From positions 1 to 20,774 of the IMG/VR virus record IMGVR_UViG_3300023220_000249: 20,774 nt of DNA. One strand, given 5' to 3'. Both the position numbers and the translations under genes were made by a program. The DNA is from a virus. Positions 5,629-17,004 of the stretch are shown one piece after another. A model generated the notes under the pieces. That model did no database searches. It was not told the origin of the DNA and worked only from the letters and a program-made list of their open reading frames with translations. The number at the start of each line of letters is the position of its first letter. Position 1 is the first letter of the stretch.

Positions 5629-6549
5629 TCATGCTCCGGCAGATGCATATAAGGTACGCTTATCGGAATAACCGAATGAATAACGCTCATCGGCTTTCAT
5701 GCGCAGATTACCAGAAGTAAACGCATTATCTTGACCAAACTCGACCGCTTGACGGGTAAAGTATTTCGCGCCGTCAGGCACATTGGTTTTGATAAACCAG
5801 GCATCAGCATCTGTTAGGTAATTGTTAATAGTGAATCCATCACGCAATGCGTTCATATCACGCACGGCATTAGTGGCATTATCACTCGTGTCATTCTGAA
5901 GAACCGAACCTAAAACACGTTGAAATTCAAATTGCAATGCATTAGGGCCAATCAATCGAATTCCCTTTAATGCAATCTGCAAATCTCTAGGATCTGTGGC
6001 GTCACCTATGATAATTAACAAATCTTCAAGCGAAGCTTCAGAAAAATCAGCATCTACTGCTAACTTATTGCTGAAAGTCCCACCTGTAGGGCCATTAACG
6101 TTCACAGTGGAGAACAACTCTATACCGTCCCCGCCTGACTGAGTAAAGGCACTATTAAAACCACGATTCAAAATATTAGCCCCTACAACTTCCTTGGTTT
6201 GCGTCATAGAAAAAGCTAATCGACTTGTATTGTTTTGAAGCTGCCCATACAGTTCATCTTGCATAGCCTCTTTTGACTGGATAAATCCCTTGCCATAAGT
6301 AAGATGCTGATAAACAGGAATGAAGCCCTGGCGGAATGAATCGAATGATATTTCATCGCTTTCAGGCTTTTCAGGCGCAAGCCCTAAACCTTCCAGTTGT
6401 GCATCAGACTCAAAGTTCTTGGTCGAACTGAATGTGTCAAAGATTTTACTCCACTGCGTTTCGTGCGGCTCATAATTAGCGCCAAAGATACGATTTAAAC
6501 CCTCTTCTAATAGGCGGGGTATAGTGCCTGTCGTAATTGTACCGGCCAT
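5629..6549 (-). CDS. Putative major capsid protein, 306 aa
   Basis: Begins MAGTITTGTIPRLLEEGLNR, with an unusually strong ribosome site (GGAGG, 6 bases from ATG) as expected for the most abundant virion protein. It lies downstream of the scaffold-like and decoration-like genes and is followed by a hairpin terminator, the usual setting of a capsid gene. The sequence has a long helical N-terminal arm, a central NRGFNSAFTQSGGDGIELFS loop region and a C-terminal FTSGNLRMKADERYSFGYSD. This pattern is typical of short HK97-fold capsid proteins. P22 coat is larger (430 residues), so the capsid lineage need not be P22 itself. No direct family motif is decisive; the call rests on position, expression signal and pattern. 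Confidence 0.8.
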   Translation of the reverse strand: MAGTITTGTIPRLLEEGLNRIFGANYEPHETQWSKIFDTFSSTKNFESDAQLEGLGLAPEKPESDEISFDSFRQGFIPVYQHLTYGKGFIQSKEAMQDELYGQLQNNTSRLAFSMTQTKEVVGANILNRGFNSAFTQSGGDGIELFSTVNVNGPTGGTFSNKLAVDADFSEASLEDLLIIIGDATDPRDLQIALKGIRLIGPNALQFEFQRVLGSVLQNDTSDNATNAVRDMNALRDGFTINNYLTDADAWFIKTNVPDGAKYFTRQAVEFGQDNAFTSGNLRMKADERYSFGYSDKRTLYASAGA

Positions 6550-10105: not shown

Positions 10106-10364
10106 CATTCCCCTCCAAACACTCAGGCGTCCACCCAATAGCAAAATCAACAGTATCTTGGACACCGTTAAACTTTGCGGCTTGTAAGCCAGCCGTATCG
10201 GATTTCTCCGCGTGGATATCATCGCCACACTGTAATTGCAGTTGCTCTAAGTCTTCAAAGAGCTGCTTAGTAATGATGTTGTGTCGCCAAGCCTCAAAGT
10301 CAGCTTGGGATATTGGATGGGACCGTCTCTGGTCTTGGAGTTTCTCTAGATAATCTTTCAGCAT
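10098..10364 (-). CDS. Conserved-type phage hypothetical protein, 88 aa
   Basis: Helical and acidic: MLKDYLEKLQDQRRSHPISQ, then FEAWRHNIITKQLFEDLEQL, ending WTPECLEGNDE. The first 65 bases overlap the end of the portal gene in another frame, with a purine-rich AGAGAGAT upstream of the ATG inside the portal coding sequence. No enzymatic motif seen. A conserved small helical protein right after the portal is common in phages; function unknown. Confidence 0.7.
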   Translation of the reverse strand: MLKDYLEKLQDQRRSHPISQADFEAWRHNIITKQLFEDLEQLQLQCGDDIHAEKSDTAGLQAAKFNGVQDTVDFAIGWTPECLEGNDE

Positions 10365-12384
10365 TGTCTATCTCTCTTTCTTTGATGGTATTGTCTATAG
10401 CCGAATTGACGGCGGATAACTGGGTAGTGTATTTATTTATCTGATTCTTTGCATCTTCTGATTCTGCTTTCTCTAAGTTTAAAACAACTTCAGATTCAGT
10501 CTTTTTAATATCTGACGGTACAGCCGCTAAAGCCGCCGCGGCCTCTTTCTCCTGGATAACCAGTAAACGCTCTCTATGGTCTATGTCAATCGCTTGTAGC
10601 TGTCTGCGCACTCTATCCTGCTGTTCCTGGGCTTGTGCGCGTGCGGCCTGCTCTTCACTCATTTGCTCTGGATCTGGGAAGACCTGGCCTAACAGATCAT
10701 CAGCGCCAATAGCATCAAAGTAAGCTTCCCAGATAGCCCGCACGTCACCACCCGTTAATGCTATCTCTTGTGCTCTAAATGTCAAGGCCTCAGCTCTTTG
10801 GATGCGCTGCATTCTAGAGGACATTTCAGGGTTAGCGGTAGGCGCTATGTCTAAACTGTCTAAGCTAAAGTCTCTAACAAAATCAGCGTTAAGATCATCC
10901 AGCACAATCCGGTATAGCTCGGGATCAGTAAAGCGGGAGTTAAGGATAAACAACAGCCTGAACTCTTCAGACTCCGCGCCTATAACACGCTGCATGATAG
11001 CCGACATAGGTAGCATGGCTTCTTGTATGAGTGCCAATGTGGTTGTAGCGGGGGCATTAGGCGAAAGCACACCTTTTAGATCGGTGTTGACTGCTAATTC
11101 TTTGACTTGTCTATCCAGCTTTTCGTTCAATGCGAACAAAACAGCCGATGGTTCTTTGAATTGGTGTCGCAATACACCATTTTGTAAATCGGCGGGTGAA
11201 ATATTAGTGTCTTCAAACTGCCCTGGCTTAAAGCGCAGATTGCCCATACGCTTTCTAAACCCTCTGGCTAGTAATCCGCCTTGAAGATTAGCCAATACGC
11301 CCGAGTCAGTTAATAGATTAGTGGTGGAGTTAATAGCCTTGCTCAACGAGCTGAGCAAATGGTAGTAACCAAGTCCTAAAAATGTACCATCAGTCGAGGG
11401 AATAAAATCATAGCAGACTATATTTTGATCAGGTTCAATCCTGACTAACTCCAGCCGCTTTACATTCTCCCTGTCATCTGGACCTAATGGGCGAATAGCA
11501 TCACCATCCTTAACCGTGATACCGGATGCCTGGAAGCGCGCTACTATCCTAACAACTTGCTGCGTCTGCTTGTGCACAGTGACCGTGTAAGGTTCCCGAT
11601 ACCCATCGTCATCCAGGTCATAAAAACAGTTCTGCTCTAAAAACTGCTGCGGATTATCACTAGCGTTAATGACTTCCTGCTCTTCATTTGACCCTTCGTC
11701 ACCTTCCGCATTTTCAGGATAAATATCAACATCTAGCCAAATGCCTGCCGCTTGCCGCTCAAATACCTCATCAACGGAGAAGTCCATAACATGGGTAAAA
11801 GGCACATCAATCAGGGATTTTGCGGCTTGGTTGACAACAAAGTCAGGGAAGTGGATCAGCTCTGATTTATTAATACCTTGAATGGGATCAAAGAATATTT
11901 TCTTAAAGACGGCGCCGACAGAAGGCAGCTCATACAACAACTTTTGCTGACTTTTCCGCCAGCCTCGCATTTGGTGGTTAATCTGCCAGTTCATAAACTC
12001 GACAACGTTCTCACCTGCCTGCTTCTTAGCGCCGGTATCATCATTACCGATAACGTCAGTCTTGACCAGATTACGGCCTCTGAGCAGCTCAGTCGAGGAT
12101 CTGTCACCAAAGGTAATGGATGCTTCGATAATGGCAGGGGATTTGAAATTGCTGGCACCTTCCCAAGGCTGAGACTTAGCGGCCGTTTCCTGCTTGGCTA
12201 TATCTTGACCATCTTCAACCATTTGCGTCCATTCGGTCATGGAGTCCAGGTCGCGGTCAAAGTCGGCAATGACTTGTTCGGCTAGCTTTTTGAGTACATT
12301 TTCCCCGTCTTCACCGTCGCGGATATCTTCGGCTATGTTGAGCTGGCCGATGTAGGAGATTAGTGTCTCTATGTTTTTAGCCAT
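10300..12384 (-). CDS. Portal protein, 694 aa
   Basis: Size and position (after large terminase, before scaffold) match P22-type portals (gp1, 725 residues). Visible features: an acidic N-terminal helix region with SQPWEGASNFKSPAI (about 71-85), a wing/stem region with GLGYYHLLSSLSKAINSTTN, a RFKPGQFED stretch with PSAVLFALNEKLDRQVKELA, and a long Gln/Glu/Ala-rich C-terminal helix (about 560-690; EEQAARAQAQEQQDRVRRQL) that could form the barrel. The portal dodecamer is the DNA entry channel and the docking site for terminase and the gp4-like protein. A TAA shared with the preceding 54-residue gene lies just inside its start (12377-12384 overlap). Confidence 0.87.
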   Translation of the reverse strand: MAKNIETLISYIGQLNIAEDIRDGEDGENVLKKLAEQVIADFDRDLDSMTEWTQMVEDGQDIAKQETAAKSQPWEGASNFKSPAIIEASITFGDRSSTELLRGRNLVKTDVIGNDDTGAKKQAGENVVEFMNWQINHQMRGWRKSQQKLLYELPSVGAVFKKIFFDPIQGINKSELIHFPDFVVNQAAKSLIDVPFTHVMDFSVDEVFERQAAGIWLDVDIYPENAEGDEGSNEEQEVINASDNPQQFLEQNCFYDLDDDGYREPYTVTVHKQTQQVVRIVARFQASGITVKDGDAIRPLGPDDRENVKRLELVRIEPDQNIVCYDFIPSTDGTFLGLGYYHLLSSLSKAINSTTNLLTDSGVLANLQGGLLARGFRKRMGNLRFKPGQFEDTNISPADLQNGVLRHQFKEPSAVLFALNEKLDRQVKELAVNTDLKGVLSPNAPATTTLALIQEAMLPMSAIMQRVIGAESEEFRLLFILNSRFTDPELYRIVLDDLNADFVRDFSLDSLDIAPTANPEMSSRMQRIQRAEALTFRAQEIALTGGDVRAIWEAYFDAIGADDLLGQVFPDPEQMSEEQAARAQAQEQQDRVRRQLQAIDIDHRERLLVIQEKEAAAALAAVPSDIKKTESEVVLNLEKAESEDAKNQINKYTTQLSAVNSAIDNTIKEREIDNAERLSRETPRPETVPSNIPS

Positions 12385-12541: not shown

Positions 12542-12779
12542 CATATACCGCACCGGTGGCTATCGATATCTCAGTGCCGCTAACATGGTCAGGATAGGTA
12601 AACCTAACAGTCCACATGGTTTGTTCAATCTTGTTCTTGGCAGTACCTATATATTCTGTGGCTGAAAAGTAGATGTCACTTGGCAGTGTAGTGGTGTTGT
12701 CCACGGTAAATGGCCCAGGCTCTATAGTTGTTAGGTCGGGGTCAGAGTAGACAGGTTTGTCAAAACTTAAGGAGTACAT
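12534..12779 (-). CDS. Hypothetical protein between terminase and portal, 81 aa
   Basis: Start at ATG 12779 overlaps the terminase TGA (TGATG); a GTG one codon earlier is possible. Polar, beta-type: MYSLSFDKPVYSDPDLTTIE, with EYIGTAKNKIEQTMWTVRFT. No Cys or membrane segment. Reads like a small beta protein; possible head-completion role from position only. Confidence 0.7.
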   Translation of the reverse strand: MYSLSFDKPVYSDPDLTTIEPGPFTVDNTTTLPSDIYFSATEYIGTAKNKIEQTMWTVRFTYPDHVSGTEISIATGAVYDE

Positions 12780-14209
12780 CACCAGTATCCAGTCTCGCGG
12801 CGTTGATCATTTTCATGCTCGGGATTAAAGTCATTTTCCTGCTGACTTATAGCATATCTCAGCATCATAAGTCCATATCGGCTAGCATCTAGGGCGTCAT
12901 CGTTCAGCTTGACTATTTTACCATCTTTGCGGTGATAGAGTCTAAACTCCTCTAGCCAGGGTTCGCAAGTATTGAACACCTTCCATCTGCCCGTTCTCAT
13001 TCTGTCTAATATATCGGCAATTCCAGGCTCTACGTTATTGCTGCCATTCTCAAAGGTGGCCCTGTCTTCCAGCATAGCAACATCACATTCACTGTATAAT
13101 TCTGCTAGCCGCTTGCCGGAACCTTTTTCATGATTAAGGCCATCGTGTGGCCACGCTACGGGAATCCAGCTATTCGACTTATTGATGATAATGCAGAACG
13201 GAGAGACTTCCATCTGCCGCTCTTTTACCAATGCTCGCACGTAGATAATATCGCCATCACGATCATAAGCCATATCGACCAAGGCCTGCGGGTGATCCCA
13301 GCCAAAATCTAAGCCTCTGATTCTTGGCCAGTACTTGGGTATCTCGAATGGTTCACAGACTATTCTCTCTTCCGATATTGGGTATATCCTGCCACTGCCT
13401 AACGCCGGTATGCCCTTAGTCCTGGCATCTCTTTCATGCTCCGGATAGGACGCAATGATGGCGTCCTTTTCCTCTTCCGTGTAGTGATCGGCATCGTCAA
13501 TGGTCATTATGGTCAATGACTGATTCTTATGCGGCTCCTGGTAAAACTGCATAACCACTTGAGTCATGCCTTTGAGTGGCGTGAAAGTCATCCAGGCAAA
13601 TTGACCTGCCTGCCCATTGTTGGTACGGGTTAGCCCTTCTGTGTAGATATCAGCGGGCGGCTCTTCGTCATACCATATCCAGTCGATAGTCTCGCCTTGG
13701 AACTTTTCCCGCCCTTTTTCGTAAGACTTGAAGAATATAAGCGATTGACTACCAGATTTGTGCTTAACCTTGACGTGATCGAGTAGATCAGGAACGCCCA
13801 TAGCTTTCTTGTAGCTCAGTATGTGGTCATGGGGTATAGATCCTGTTCCTATGAGGGTAACGTCCTGCATACGGCCTACCAGGAGCTTCTGTGTAGTGTC
13901 TCGGATGCACTCTCCGGAAACACCACATACCCAGCCTACCGTGGCCTTGGAGAAGCGCTGGCCTTCCCAGTCTGCCGGATATAGTCCAGTGGCGTGAAAG
14001 GCTGCTTCCATGGCACCACAATATGACTTGCCGGTCTGATTGCCTGCTCCAAGACAGCGTTCGGAGTATCGCCTGCCATCAGCATGAAACTGCCGTTGCT
14101 TAGCGTAAGGCTTGTAGAAGAAACACTGATTGCCAGCTTTGATTTGCTTGTACTGTATGATGGCTTCAGCTATTTGTCGGGCTTTGGCTAGGTCTTTGAT
14201 TTCTGACAT
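12779..14209 (-). CDS. terL: Terminase large subunit, 476 aa
   Basis: ATPase and nuclease halves are both visible. Walker A is GAGNQTGKS (54-62); the Walker B/catalytic pair is IDWIWYDEE (175-183, Asp181-Glu182); a coupling TFTPLKG motif lies at 208-214. The RNase H-like nuclease acidic residues fit Asp301 in RGLDFGWDHP, Asp356 in WPHDG and Asp441 in NDDALDASRY. It powers DNA translocation into the prohead and cuts the concatemer, docking on the portal encoded downstream. Length is in the normal range for P22/Sf6-type enzymes. It overlaps the 51-residue gene upstream by 22 bases. The small subunit is not adjacent but about 1.4 kb away. Confidence 0.95.
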   Translation of the reverse strand: MSEIKDLAKARQIAEAIIQYKQIKAGNQCFFYKPYAKQRQFHADGRRYSERCLGAGNQTGKSYCGAMEAAFHATGLYPADWEGQRFSKATVGWVCGVSGECIRDTTQKLLVGRMQDVTLIGTGSIPHDHILSYKKAMGVPDLLDHVKVKHKSGSQSLIFFKSYEKGREKFQGETIDWIWYDEEPPADIYTEGLTRTNNGQAGQFAWMTFTPLKGMTQVVMQFYQEPHKNQSLTIMTIDDADHYTEEEKDAIIASYPEHERDARTKGIPALGSGRIYPISEERIVCEPFEIPKYWPRIRGLDFGWDHPQALVDMAYDRDGDIIYVRALVKERQMEVSPFCIIINKSNSWIPVAWPHDGLNHEKGSGKRLAELYSECDVAMLEDRATFENGSNNVEPGIADILDRMRTGRWKVFNTCEPWLEEFRLYHRKDGKIVKLNDDALDASRYGLMMLRYAISQQENDFNPEHENDQRRETGYW

Positions 14210-14343
14210 TTGTCTAAATAAGCCCGTAGAATATCAGTTTCACTGTAACCTTCCCCATCGAGCACTTCCATTTCATCTCCTTCATATTCTTCCACTGCCA
14301 TTCTTATGGCCTTTTCTAGCTTTTCATGATCGATATCAGTCAT
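14188..14343 (-). CDS. Small acidic protein, 51 aa
   Basis: Sequence MTDIDHEKLEKAIRMAVEEY, then EGDEMEVLDGEGYSETDILR, ending YLDKCQKSKT. Very acidic and helical. The ATG overlaps the end of the 85-residue gene and the stop falls inside the terminase gene, so it is coupled to both. It could be a terminase cofactor from its position, but no family is recognised. Confidence 0.68.
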   Translation of the reverse strand: MTDIDHEKLEKAIRMAVEEYEGDEMEVLDGEGYSETDILRAYLDKCQKSKT

Positions 14344-14593
14344 CTTTCACCTCATTTGGGTCTTTCAGCAGATTATCTACAATTTTCACTACTTCTGGCC
14401 TAAAAATAACCCTATATACCTGGTATCTTATATCTCTACTAGTAACGATATCTCTTTCAACCATCTGTGCTCGTATCCAAGCACGGGCATTTTTATCATT
14501 TCCAACCTCTATAGACAAAAATGACCAGAGATGGCTATCCATTGATATGCTGACTCTTTTGCCGTCTCTATTTTTACCATCTATGATTTTCAT
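14336..14593 (-). CDS. Small basic protein, 85 aa, possible DNA-binding regulator
   Basis: First gene of the minus-strand virion operon. It has VSISMDSHLWSFLSIEVGND and then RAWIRAQMVERDIV, a beta strand followed by two helices, loosely like a ribbon-helix-helix protein (strand, helix, helix). The tail is FRPEVVKIVDNLLKDPNEVK. The ribosome site is weak. Being first behind a promoter and next to repeated operator-like boxes, it is a candidate regulator, but that is inference. Confidence 0.6.
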   Translation of the reverse strand: MKIIDGKNRDGKRVSISMDSHLWSFLSIEVGNDKNARAWIRAQMVERDIVTSRDIRYQVYRVIFRPEVVKIVDNLLKDPNEVKDD

Positions 14594-14617: not shown

Positions 14618-14626
14618 ATTTTACCA
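14618..14626 (-). promoter_or_regulatory. Extended -10 promoter candidate for the virion operon
   Basis: Minus strand TGGTAAAAT, an extended -10 (TGnTAAAAT), about 25 bases upstream of the 85-residue gene start. It resembles TGGTATAAT upstream of the small-terminase gene. No good -35 is visible, as allowed for extended -10 promoters. It lies in the 14594-14737 divergent region. Confidence 0.45.
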
Positions 14627-14659
14627 CACATTGCCTTTAGCTATTGTCATACCGGATAG

Positions 14660-14676
14660 TGATAGGTAAATACAAT
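14660..14676 (+). repeat. Operator-like box, copy 1 (TGATAGGTAAATACAAT)
   Basis: Matches 16 of 17 bases of the copy at 19523-19539 and contains TAAATACAAT, one base from TAATTACAAT found at 15143 and 16098. Sits between the two divergent promoters. Confidence 0.55.
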
Positions 14677-14683
14677 TGGGATA

Positions 14684-14706
14684 TTACCGGATAGATTAGT
14701 ACTATG
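14684..14706 (+). promoter_or_regulatory. Plus-strand promoter A
   Basis: TTACCGGATAGATTAG followed by -10 TACTAT (14700-14705). Shares CCGG, GATT and spacing to a downstream ACAGTCAA stretch and CGGAG ribosome site with the leaders at 15162, 16143 and 16745. A second ACCGGATAG lies at 14651. Confidence 0.5.
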
Positions 14707-14737
14707 GCTATACAGTCAAACAAGCGGAGAAATGAAG

Positions 14738-14941
14738 ATGAAATACTTATTATATACAGGTGATAATTACTCCCAACTCGGCGGGGCAGAGGACTTTAGA
14801 GGGATGTTTGACAGCCTCGACGAGGCGAAGGCCCAGGTTTCAAGCCCTAAGTATGAATGGGCGCACATCACTACGCTGGATGCGCCAGGCACGATTGTTG
14901 CGGAATGCTTGGAGCGTAGCGGTTGCGGCTGGGTAGCCTAA
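14738..14941 (+). CDS. Small phage protein, 67 aa
   Basis: Starts MKYLLYTGDNYSQLGGAEDF, followed by FRGMFDSLDEAKA and EWAHITTLD. Start chosen at 14738 because GGAG is 8 bases away; the ATG at 14732 is only 2 bases from it. The pattern 'TGDNY..LGG..DF...FD(S/T)L.EA' is one I associate with small conserved phage proteins of unknown function. It has its own promoter and is followed by a terminator at 15035, so it is a single-gene unit facing opposite to the virion operon. Confidence 0.75.
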   Translation: MKYLLYTGDNYSQLGGAEDFRGMFDSLDEAKAQVSSPKYEWAHITTLDAPGTIVAECLERSGCGWVA

Positions 14942-14984
14942 AGCTATGTTCTGTATGCCTAAGCTGATCAAATAACAACCAAAA

Positions 14985-15105
14985 CAGCAGATTCCACTGC
15001 TACATTTAGTACTGCCCTGGTATATCTCGCACCTACCCTCTGCATTTGAGGGTTTTTGCAGTGGATTATGCTGGTAAATGGGCCATATGGCAGCAGATTC
15101 CACTG
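14985..15105. repeat. Three copies of a 15-bp element in +, -, + order
   Basis: CAGCAGATTCCACTG at 14985-14999 and 15091-15105 are identical. The middle copy at 15059-15073, read on the minus strand, is CAGCATAATCCACTG (13 of 15 the same). Copy 2 can pair with copy 1 (enclosing the terminator) or with copy 3 (17-base loop), but not both. Confidence 0.7.
15035..15057 (+). terminator. Rho-independent terminator of the 67-aa gene
   Basis: ACCCTC-TGCATTT-GAGGGT stem (15035-15053) followed by five Ts on the plus strand. Lies about 95 bases after the gene, between copies 1 and 2 of the 15-bp element. Confidence 0.7.
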
Positions 15106-15142
15106 ATAGGTTTTGGCTATTGCTTGGTAATGAAGCTATAGA

Positions 15143-15152
15143 TAATTACAAT
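15143..15152 (+). repeat. Operator-like box, copy 2 (TAATTACAAT)
   Basis: Core of the box seen also at 14667, 16098 (reverse) and 19530. Its distance to the -10 of the next promoter is the same as at copy 1: ACAATT lies 22 bases before the -10 hexamer in both. Confidence 0.5.
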
Positions 15153-15161
15153 TAGATTCTA

Positions 15162-15182
15162 TCCGGTAAGATTGCTATAGTT
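15162..15182 (+). promoter_or_regulatory. Plus-strand promoter B
   Basis: TCCGGTAAGATTGCTATAGT: CCGG at 15163-15166, extended -10 TGCTATAGT ending 15181. Followed by ACATAGACAACGGAG and the ParB-like gene. Nearly the same as the leader at 16745. Confidence 0.6.
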
Positions 15183-15209
15183 AATACATAGACAACGGAG
15201 ACCAAAGCA

Positions 15210-15530
15210 ATGCAAACAATCGTACTAGCTCACAATCACTACAGCCAAGCACACCTAGAGGCTGTTAAAGCCAGCATGATAGAGCTAGGAGCGCCAACTA
15301 TCCGGGTTTACGACCTAGGCTTTGATAACCTCTGCCAAGCTATAGAGGGCTGTCATAGGCTAAGAGCGTGTGAAGAGCTAGGCATTACACCTGTTTTAGA
15401 ATATGTGGACTCAGAAGCCAGCCTGGAGAGCCTGGGGGGCTGTGATTTTGAGGGAGCAGAGAAGGCGTGTGAAGTAGGCGACTGGGAAAACTATCAAATC
15501 AGCGAGCAAGACATAGAGGACAACCAATGA
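15210..15530 (+). CDS. ParB/sulfiredoxin-like domain protein, 106 aa
   Basis: Residues 40-68 read NLCQAIEGCHRLRACEELGI then TPVLEYVD. The EGCHRLRAxEELGITPV segment fits the conserved GxHRRxAA..LG...vPv motif of the ParB N-terminal (ParB/Srx) fold, which binds CTP or other nucleotides and in some members is a nuclease. The protein is only this domain plus an acidic tail (residues about 70-106, Glu/Asp-rich), with no HTH, so it is not a classical partition protein. In phages, lone ParB-like domains occur in accessory regions and in some anti-defence or DNA-modification proteins. Activity here is unknown. It ends with an ATGA overlap into a small membrane-protein gene. Confidence 0.7.
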   Translation: MQTIVLAHNHYSQAHLEAVKASMIELGAPTIRVYDLGFDNLCQAIEGCHRLRACEELGITPVLEYVDSEASLESLGGCDFEGAEKACEVGDWENYQISEQDIEDNQ

Positions 15531-15631
15531 ACACCAGTAAAGAGTGGGCTAAGCTGCCTGTTGACCGCAAGATAGCGTTAATACTGTTAGCAGTAGTGAT
15601 AACCGCCGGAATATTTCAGCTATTTTTATAG
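15527..15631 (+). CDS. Small membrane protein, 34 aa
   Basis: Sequence MNTSKEWAKLPVDRKIALIL ending LAVVITAGIFQLFL; a polar, basic N-terminus followed by one span to the end (tail-anchored, N-in). ATG overlaps the ParB-like TGA. It converges with the small-terminase gene, overlapping its last 6 bases. Function unknown. Confidence 0.6.
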   Translation: MNTSKEWAKLPVDRKIALILLAVVITAGIFQLFL

Positions 15632-16057
15632 CTTGCCCACATCAACCCCATGCTCTTCCAGCAGCTCCTCTAAGGCCTCTAGGTTGTTTACGTCCAAGGT
15701 ATGCTTAGTGGTCTGCTCTACGGTTTGGCGTTGCTGCCAGGTGTGTTTGAAGCGATTGCACATGTTAAAAATGAGGCTTGTGGCGTTAGCTTCTGTGTTG
15801 GCGCCGGTCGCGTGTTCCTTGCTTTTATCTTCCCACCAAGCTTGGCAAATTTCATGCCCTTCTTTTACGGTGGACGAAAATTGATCAATCTCTTCTATCC
15901 ATCTATACCATAAATCCTTACTAACTGTATGGTCTTTAAAGCAATTTACTCTAACCCATACATCGCTATTGCCGTCACTGTAGCCAGCTAGCATCTCTTG
16001 TTGCCATTCGGTATTGTAATCTTCCGGATTAACTTTAGGCCTGCCTCTATCTGCCAT
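15626..16057 (-). CDS. terS: Terminase small subunit, 143 aa
   Basis: Basic start (MADRGRPKVNPEDYNTEWQQ), then an HTH-like segment with SDVWVRVNCFKDHTVSKDLW and YRWIEEI (about 30-57). An oligomerisation helix region follows (FSSTVKEGHEICQAWWEDKS), then ATSLIFNMCNRFKHTWQQRQ, which mirrors the common TerS pattern 'N...I..F.LKN...W.DK'. The C-terminus is an acidic helix (LEALEELLEEHGVDVGKL) likely to contact the large subunit. TerS recognises pac and loads TerL. It is encoded about 1.4 kb upstream of terL with oppositely oriented genes between them, which is unusual. It has its own -10. Confidence 0.8.
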   Translation of the reverse strand: MADRGRPKVNPEDYNTEWQQEMLAGYSDGNSDVWVRVNCFKDHTVSKDLWYRWIEEIDQFSSTVKEGHEICQAWWEDKSKEHATGANTEANATSLIFNMCNRFKHTWQQRQTVEQTTKHTLDVNNLEALEELLEEHGVDVGKL

Positions 16058-16085
16058 GTCTTTATCTCATAAGTAGAGTACTAAC

Positions 16086-16094
16086 ATTATACCA
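16086..16094 (-). promoter_or_regulatory. Extended -10 promoter for the small terminase
   Basis: Minus strand TGGTATAAT, a perfect TATAAT with extended TG, about 28 bases upstream of the terS ATG. TAATTACAAT (16098-16107, minus) lies directly upstream, overlapping where a regulator could block it. Confidence 0.65.
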
Positions 16095-16097
16095 TAT

Positions 16098-16107
16098 ATT
16101 GTAATTA
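16098..16107 (-). repeat. Operator-like box, copy 3 (TAATTACAAT, minus strand)
   Basis: Identical core to the copies at 15143 and 19530, here reversed, 4 bases from the terS extended -10 and about 36 bases from plus-strand promoter C. Confidence 0.5.
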
Positions 16108-16140
16108 TTTATGATATTGGCGGCTAAATCCCTTGTATCT

Positions 16141-16165
16141 TACCGGAGAGATTGTTATTATAGTT
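16141..16165 (+). promoter_or_regulatory. Plus-strand promoter C
   Basis: TACCGGAGAGATTGTTATTATAGT: CCGG at 16143-16146 and an extended -10 TGTTATTAT (TATTAT 16156-16161) or TATAGT (16159). Followed by ACAGTCAAGCAACGGAG, similar to promoter A's leader. Confidence 0.6.
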
Positions 16166-16193
16166 ACACAGTCAAGCAACGGAGTAAACGGAA

Positions 16194-16421
16194 ATGAACA
16201 CAGCAACCTTAAACGAAAACATGAAAATGGCGAGCGATAAACAACTCTACTGGCTCAAGTTTTCTAACGGCGACGTAGTTAAGAACGTTAATAGTGACGG
16301 CTTCAAGAAGCCTGAGAATAGGGGCCGTCCTTTTAGAATCATAGTTTCTTGGGGAACAATGAGAGATATAGACAAGCGCCTAAACCCTGACTTCGGCACA
16401 GGGTTTAACCAGTACAGATAG
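16194..16421 (+). CDS. Hypothetical protein, 75 aa
   Basis: Starts MNTATLNENMKMASDKQLYW and has LKFSNGDVVKNVN and RPFRIIVSWGTMRDIDKRLN, a short basic, beta-leaning protein. Ribosome site GGAGTAAACGGA precedes the ATG. No recognised family. It is the first gene after promoter C and may be co-transcribed with the next gene. Confidence 0.68.
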   Translation: MNTATLNENMKMASDKQLYWLKFSNGDVVKNVNSDGFKKPENRGRPFRIIVSWGTMRDIDKRLNPDFGTGFNQYR

Positions 16422-16479
16422 TTTGCGCAAGTTGCATAACAGGACACCCGCCAAGGATGGCAAACTAAAGGCGTACAGC

Positions 16480-16725
16480 ATGATAACTTATTATGATCAC
16501 GACCAGGATAAAGACGTAAAAATATCCGCAAAACATAAAGCACAGGCAATGCTTTTGAGTGGCATACAAGTAGCATTTTCCAGGTTTAATGAAGGCGAAT
16601 CAGCCGATCTAATCCAAATGACTGACCGCGAAAAAACGTTAGTTTTGGATCAAATGGATAAGCAAATGGGTAGAGTGGAAAAGATGTTTGGTTTTGAGCC
16701 CGGTTCCTGGATGAGGGGATGTTGA
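16480..16725 (+). CDS. Hypothetical protein, 81 aa
   Basis: From ATG 16480: MITYYDHDQDKDVKISAKHK, QAMLLSGIQVAFSRFNEGES, then a helical DQMDKQMGRVEKMFGFEPGS and WMRGC end. AAAGG lies about 9 bases upstream of this ATG. The frame is open back to a TTG at 16423 (100 residues) but that start has no ribosome site. Function unknown. Confidence 0.62.
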   Translation: MITYYDHDQDKDVKISAKHKAQAMLLSGIQVAFSRFNEGESADLIQMTDREKTLVLDQMDKQMGRVEKMFGFEPGSWMRGC

Positions 16726-16744
16726 TAGCTAAACCCTATCACAC

Positions 16745-16762
16745 CCGCAGATTGCTATAGTT
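16745..16762 (+). promoter_or_regulatory. Plus-strand promoter D
   Basis: CCGCAGATTGCTATAGTTA: extended -10 TGCTATAGT (TATAGT 16756-16761). From GATTGCTATAGTTA to CATAGACAAC it is nearly the same as promoter B. The CCGG has become CCCGC here. Confidence 0.6.
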
Positions 16763-16795
16763 ACTACATAGACAACAACAACGGAGTAAAACAAC

Positions 16796-16993
16796 ATGAA
16801 CGCATACGAAGTCAGAACATTAGAAGACAAAGATGGCGAATTCTACGCAGTGGGCATCGAAGGAGTAGCACACCATTTGCTGACTTCAGAAACCAACCTA
16901 AAATGGGAAGCTAAAAACTTTTGCGACAACGAAAACAGAAACGAAATAAAAAGATATGCCTATCCGCCTGTCAAAGCCTCTCATCTTCTTTAG
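16796..16993 (+). CDS. Hypothetical protein, 65 aa
   Basis: Starts MNAYEVRTLEDKDGEFYAVG and ends YAYPPVKASHLL. CGGAG ribosome site 11-12 bases upstream. Polar, with no Cys cluster (one Cys) or membrane span. Its last codons form the left arm of the following terminator. Unknown function; a one-gene unit with promoter D. Confidence 0.65.
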   Translation: MNAYEVRTLEDKDGEFYAVGIEGVAHHLLTSETNLKWEAKNFCDNENRNEIKRYAYPPVKASHLL

Positions 16994-17004
16994 GGGCTTT
17001 TTTT
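16973..17004 (+). terminator. Rho-independent terminator
   Basis: AAAGCCT (16973-16979) pairs with GGGGCTTT (16993-17000), one G-U pair, loop 13 bases, followed by a run of seven Ts to 17004. It overlaps the end of the 65-residue gene. Confidence 0.75.

Follow-up and report, generated by a model that had tools for sequence, protein, structure and literature searches.

The locus considered here carries four similar leader sequences in front of different small genes, within the packaging region of a phage and on the opposite strand. It lies in the virus record IMGVR_UViG_3300023220_000249, which we analyzed over its whole length of 20,774 bases (the window; 43.9% GC). The record is classed as linear, for which reason it is probably a genome fragment, and as a 20.8-kb fragment it leaves the early region, and any further copies of the leader, out of view. 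Its minus strand carries the structural and packaging genes (Table 1). The large terminase subunit (TerL) is ∼50% identical to the TerL of P22-like and Rhizobium phages, while the capsid-like protein has its nearest relative in an uncultured phage (L027, 84% identical) and its relatives are other phages, mostly aquatic. At the DNA level, no match to the window was found among the phage collection records.

Four leaders share one layout

Four plus-strand leaders of about 75–80 nt, each before a different small gene, run against the direction of the packaging genes. A direct reading of the sequence recovers all of the elements listed in a preliminary description of this DNA: CCGG in three of the four leaders (A, B and C, with D the exception), a −10 hexamer TACTAT in A, TGCTATAGT in B and D and TGTTATTAT in C, followed by ACAGTCAA (A and C) or CATAGACAAC (B and D), and CGGAG in every copy. 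The homology proves longer than was then noted, reaching upstream to a GATAGcTAAAyMC box, whose sequence differs from copy to copy, and so covers more than the stretch from the −10 to CGGAG. Spacing is also shared: across the leaders the box starts 72–77 nt before the start codon and ends 19–26 nt upstream of the −10, the −10 ends 28–34 nt before the ATG, and GGAG lies 8–9 nt before it. For leader A the distances of box and GGAG are counted from 14738, a likelier start for gene A than 14732 because of the 8-nt GGAG spacing that it gives. A search against Rfam gave no match.

Leaders B, C and D combine a TGn with a −10 matching at 5/6 positions and have no −35 above 3/6, whereas in leader A the −10 and the −35 both match at 4/6 positions and TGn is missing. 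Each of the minus-strand genes that diverge from units A and C also appears to have a candidate extended −10; homology between the minus-strand halves of these two divergent regions is no more than suggestive.

Table 1. Positions of the leaders, genes and associated elements in the window
Feature	Position	Strand	Details
Leader A	14655-14737	+	box GATAGGTAAATAC 14661-14673; CCGG 14687-14690; GGAG 14726-14729
Leader A −10	14700-14705	+	TACTAT; no TGn
Leader B	15132-15209	+	box 15137-15149; CCGG 15163-15166; GGAG 15197-15200
Leader B extended −10	15176-15181 (−10)	+	TGC-TATAGT; TGCTATAGT
Leader C	16113-16193	+	box 16119-16131; CCGG 16143-16146; GGAG 16181-16184
Leader C extended −10	16156-16161 (−10)	+	TGT-TATTAT; TGTTATTAT
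Leader D	16718-16795	+	box GATAGCTAAACCC 16724-16736; no CCGG; GGAG 16783-16786
Leader D extended −10	16756-16761 (−10)	+	TGC-TATAGT; TGCTATAGT
Candidate extended −10 of terS	16086-16094	−	TGGTATAAT; divergent from leader C
Candidate extended −10 before 14593 gene	14618-14626	−	TGGTAAAAT; counterpart of the terS site
Gene A	14738-14941	+	67 aa; distant match phrog_1411, function unknown
Gene B	15210-15530	+	106 aa, acidic; no family match
Gene B2	15527-15631	+	34 aa, C-terminal half hydrophobic; convergent with terS, 6 nt overlap
Gene C	16194-16421	+	75 aa; orphan
Gene C2	16423-16725	+	100 aa, TTG start; orphan
Gene D	16796-16993	+	65 aa; orphan
Terminator-like hairpin after gene A	15035-15058	+	ACCCTC..GAGGGT + TTTT; −13.6 kcal/mol, z −2.0
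Terminator-like hairpin	16973-17004	+	AAAGCCTCT..AGGGGCTTT + T run; −10.3 kcal/mol, z −2.9
Capsid-like gene	5629-6549	−	
Portal-like gene	10300-12384	−	
TerL, large terminase subunit	12779-14209	−	P22-like; Pfam Terminase_6N/6C
85-aa gene	14336-14593	−	divergent from unit A; no family match
TerS, small terminase subunit	15626-16057	−	between units B and C; phrog_309, E 7e-10

Leader similarity exceeds chance

In an all-versus-all local alignment of upstream regions, the pairs A/C (score 30), B/D (26), A/B (25) and C/D (24) scored higher than every other pair of genes, and none of 19,885 random 75-mer pairs drawn from the window reached a score of 24. The weakest pairs were B/C, which 15 of the 19,885 random pairs equalled, and A/D, which 448 equalled. 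The exact GATTGNTATNRT occurs three times in the 20.8-kb record, each time at a leader and never reversed. A 24-nt core pattern allowing up to three mismatches matched only A, B and C, with 0.01 matches expected. When HMMs were built from three copies at a time, the held-out copy was always the best non-training match in ∼1.5 Mb (E 1.7e-6 to 9.2e-5). These results confirm that the repeated leaders are real and that their likeness lies far beyond chance.

Outside the record, two specific leader patterns had no match in 2.9 million viral contigs, and a leader HMM run over the loci of about 106 relatives returned nothing better than E 0.26. A looser pattern matched once among the 2.9 million contigs (L119), in a stretch that resembles coding sequence, and was rejected.

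The genes behind the leaders carry a coding signal and are mutually unrelated

All six plus-strand ORFs have an in-frame codon preference like that of the phage's own genes (z 2.3–4.0) and negative coding scores in the other frames and on the opposite strand. No significant similarity was found among the six products, in accordance with the earlier observation that the leaders resemble each other more than their downstream genes do. Only gene A has a family match, the remaining products being orphans. Searches for relatives of genes A and B in viral contigs, and for those of C, C2 and D among phage records, found none, apart from one weak match of gene B to a 485-kb uncultured phage (E 1e-3), and PADLOC gave no match. 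Single-sequence structure models of B and C2 were poor (mean pLDDT 48 and 60), and their fold predictions were unsearchable for that reason. Reading of the sequences had raised the suspicion of a ParB-like fold in gene B and of a ribbon-helix-helix in the 14593 product, neither of which a family or PDB search supported; PPR matches of gene B were repeat artefacts.

Terminator-like hairpins follow genes A and D, the second overlapping the gene D stop codon. No terminator was found after B2 or C2, and the folded stretches before leader D and at the end of unit B contain no convincing terminator hairpin.

The leaders form a block-wise mosaic

Each leader was split into upstream, core and UTR blocks, which were compared pairwise. 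The closest pair shifts from block to block, being A/B and A/C (26/36 each) along with C/D (23/36) in the upstream block, B/D in the core (27/28, shared indels included) and C/D in the UTR (15/18). In the upstream block B/D is among the least similar pairs (19/36, chance level), and the B/D block has sharp edges. Such a mosaic is hard to obtain from one duplication tree, and copying or recombination between leaders fits, as the preliminary description had supposed in proposing assembly by recombination at shared leaders; with four sequences the pattern is suggestive, and given only four copies uneven selection could also be its source.

The sharp boundaries of the B/D block, together with unrelated genes behind like leaders, are also what might be expected if the leaders were site-specific recombination or cassette sites, as in integrons, rather than promoters. 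This we regard as very improbable: the conserved positions are the −10 and the Shine-Dalgarno sequence at a fixed distance from the ATG, neither a shared 3′ boundary repeat nor an inverted core site was found, and no recombinase was recognized among the proteins searched. A promoter set for a T7-like, single-subunit phage RNA polymerase seems scarcely credible. Conservation does cover the −10 and the initially transcribed region, but the copies contain indels within the core, such as the 3-nt indel after GATTG, unlike the promoters of a fixed polymerase, and are too divergent for one; no polymerase gene is seen within the 20.8-kb fragment.

The terS–terL interval in related phages

The units had been described as inserted in the packaging region. 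In the nearest capsid relative (L108), terS and terL overlap and the surroundings lie almost all on one strand, and where distant relatives have homologs of both TerS and TerL, the two genes overlap or lie at most 154 nt apart. The nearest TerL relatives, L004 (68%) and L025 (46%), do have small genes between terS and terL, two or three of them (L004 2063-2467, L025 766-1401), which lie on the same strand and have no such leader. Small genes are therefore tolerated in the interval, which suggests that it may be prone to insertion. None of the relatives examined has opposite-strand genes there, and opposite-strand units with shared leaders would so far seem peculiar to the window phage. The description as inserted is supported only in part: the opposite-strand genes are absent from the relatives examined, but L004 and L025 also have small genes at this place, and the window and its nearest capsid relative do not have the same packaging genes, the TerL of the latter being non-orthologous, so that the insertion is not cleanly polarized. 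The combination in L027/L108 and the window of capsids 84% identical with non-orthologous terminase genes points to an exchange of the packaging module between close relatives.

Comparison with repeated phage promoters and T1-like leaders

Repeated promoters before small phage genes have precedents. In T4-type phages, the promoter-terminator cassettes known as PeSLs (Arbiol 2010 and Comeau 2014, cited in PMC4503421) are likewise repeated, as early-promoter cassettes, and are proposed there to mediate small-gene shuffling; the window phage is not T4-type, however, and its leaders have no stem-loop inside or directly before them, the hairpins following genes A and D instead. In cluster K mycobacteriophages, the 46–47 bp ESAS/SAS intergenic motif is repeated (seven times in Adephagia) with a SigA-like promoter before small genes (PMC3203893, PMC11373665). 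ESAS contains a 17-bp imperfect inverted repeat with −35 and −10, whereas the window leaders lack an inverted repeat and B, C and D have a −35 of at most 3/6. The repeated intergenic sequences of halovirus HF2 act as promoters in a reporter assay (PMC8707807); like the leaders they are repeated and intergenic, but they are archaeal promoters of unrelated sequence.

Lambdoid morons are small genes with their own promoter and terminator in the morphogenetic region, and the classic ones share no single leader. The moron-like character proposed earlier is retained for the window units as small ORFs on the opposite strand that are absent in this orientation from the relatives examined. They have a predicted promoter (extended −10 in B, C and D), and terminator-like hairpins were found only after genes A and D.

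The closest parallel in layout is found in the T1-like phages (Drexlerviridae). TLS has 18 intergenic repeats with the consensus aaATAGCACnnnTTGnTAAAA, which lie ∼76 nt ahead of start codons, and such repeats run in the transcription direction before small genes in TLS, T1 and Rtp; the TLS authors call their function an unanswered question (PMC11447400). The window leaders are also repeated upstream of start codons in the transcription direction, at a similar position, where a different box occupies the place of the repeat. The best match outside the window comes from the repeated leaders of the Weberviruses, which are T1-like phages of this family. By blastn, leader C is identical over 23/23 positions, start codon included, to a leader in ∼200 Klebsiella phage records (E 0.04), Weberviruses where taxonomy was read, and matches four related records at 86.8% over 38 nt (E 0.01). 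Leader D independently matches Klebsiella phages of about 50 kb, at best 81% over 43 nt. In the Webervirus Kpn02SCE a leader of ∼73 nt recurs before small genes in about 15 copies. An HMM was built from eleven of these, leaving the window out, and in 1.53 Mb it gave leader D the first rank (E 0.05) and leader C the second (E 0.3), on the right strand and in register. Singly these E-values are weak, and a shared −10/SD consensus contributes to them; jointly, and with position considered, the matches are hard to dismiss. Similarity to the Webervirus leaders extends from TAAA through the −10 to GGAG. Differences include the lack of ATAGCACnnnTTGnTAAAA in the window, the spacer hairpin of many Webervirus copies, which the window leaders do not have, the copy number (about 15–18 there, four in the window fragment) and the lineage, the window phage having a P22-like TerL and lying outside the Drexlerviridae. 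The 21-base repeat aaATAGCACnnnTTGnTAAAA does not occur in the window with up to two mismatches, and its two occurrences with three are both inside genes; the leaders are therefore elements of the T1-like kind, without proven membership.

That the leaders were acquired from the T1-like leaders, or are their recent kin, is on this evidence doubtful. The Webervirus matches of C and D speak for it, but blastn E-values reach only 0.01–0.04, a TLS-derived HMM finds the window leaders at chance level only (C at E 17), no shared genes were found, the defining repeat is absent, and a strong −10/SD leader could plausibly have arisen by convergence. In the T1-like leaders of PV081217.1 (L122) and AY308796.1 (L123) we observed that the conserved unit exceeds the published 21-base repeat: it also takes in a spacer, which varies and often forms a hairpin, and the −10 and SD beyond it. 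A second set with the same geometry, divergent in sequence and in an unrelated phage, shows which parts persist (box, extended −10, UTR and SD) and suggests that the 21-base repeat could be the upstream part of a promoter-UTR unit.

A model for the leader cassettes

Our preferred explanation, which we consider likely, is that the four leaders are host-sigma70 promoter/5′-UTR cassettes, each expressing small accessory genes, that have been copied or recombined within the phage. Each cassette would consist of the upstream box and an extended −10 that lacks a good −35, as is clear in B, C and D; the 5′ UTR would be short and A-rich, with a strong Shine-Dalgarno sequence 8–9 nt before the ATG. Host RNA polymerase would start at each leader and transcribe against the packaging operon, driving one or two genes (A; B and B2; C and C2; D). 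This expression would probably fall early in infection or be uncoupled from the late programme. We call these genes accessory by default. Duplication would have produced the copies, and later recombination or gene conversion among them would account for unrelated genes behind related leaders.

A phage-specific promoter set had been one of the two readings offered at the outset. Specificity to the phage in a strict sense is not established: the elements of B, C and D are ordinary extended −10 sigma70 elements, and no phage factor is therefore needed. The leaders might nevertheless form a regulon of four units in which a phage regulator, bound to the box and the spacer CCGG, takes the place of the −35 contact, the layout known for MotA at T4 middle promoters (PMC2988021). 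The poor −35 of B, C and D, the conserved box upstream of the −10, and ATTGTAATTA-like motifs near A, B and C and the minus-strand 19446 promoter are in line with this. A −35 is dispensable for extended −10 promoters, however, the box varies among copies, CCGG is lost in D and TGn in A, and no regulator was identified, and we consider such regulation possible but rather unlikely.

The sigma70 cassettes of our model would be copied within one phage. That the leader rather than the gene is the mobile unit, as the preliminary description had suggested, with T1-like-related promoter-UTR cassettes spreading between phage families and recruiting unrelated small genes, even into opposite-strand late modules, is as a whole an improbable extension. 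What the window adds is a genuine and clearly delimited set of repeated, predicted promoter-UTR cassettes before orphan genes, the phage strategy itself being already known. If leaders do recombine, they would offer phages a simple route to gain new small genes and express them at once, and among such genes those for host-takeover and counter-defence proteins are abundant.

Additional sequence features

Between gene A and leader B, CAGCAGATTCCACTG occurs twice as a direct and once as an imperfect inverted repeat (14985-15007, 15050-15065 and 15091-15113). On the minus strand, the stretch 19473-19060 has a good sigma70 promoter (TTGATA-16-TATTAT with TG), after which ∼390 nt are gene-free before the 19059 gene; this stretch, which had no match in Rfam, may be a long leader or a small RNA. 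A ATTGTAATTA(yCTATvA)-like motif lies near leaders A, B and C (14663-14679, 15137-15152 and 16098-16107, plus strand) and again upstream of the 19446 promoter (19539-19530, minus strand), and is a possible operator.
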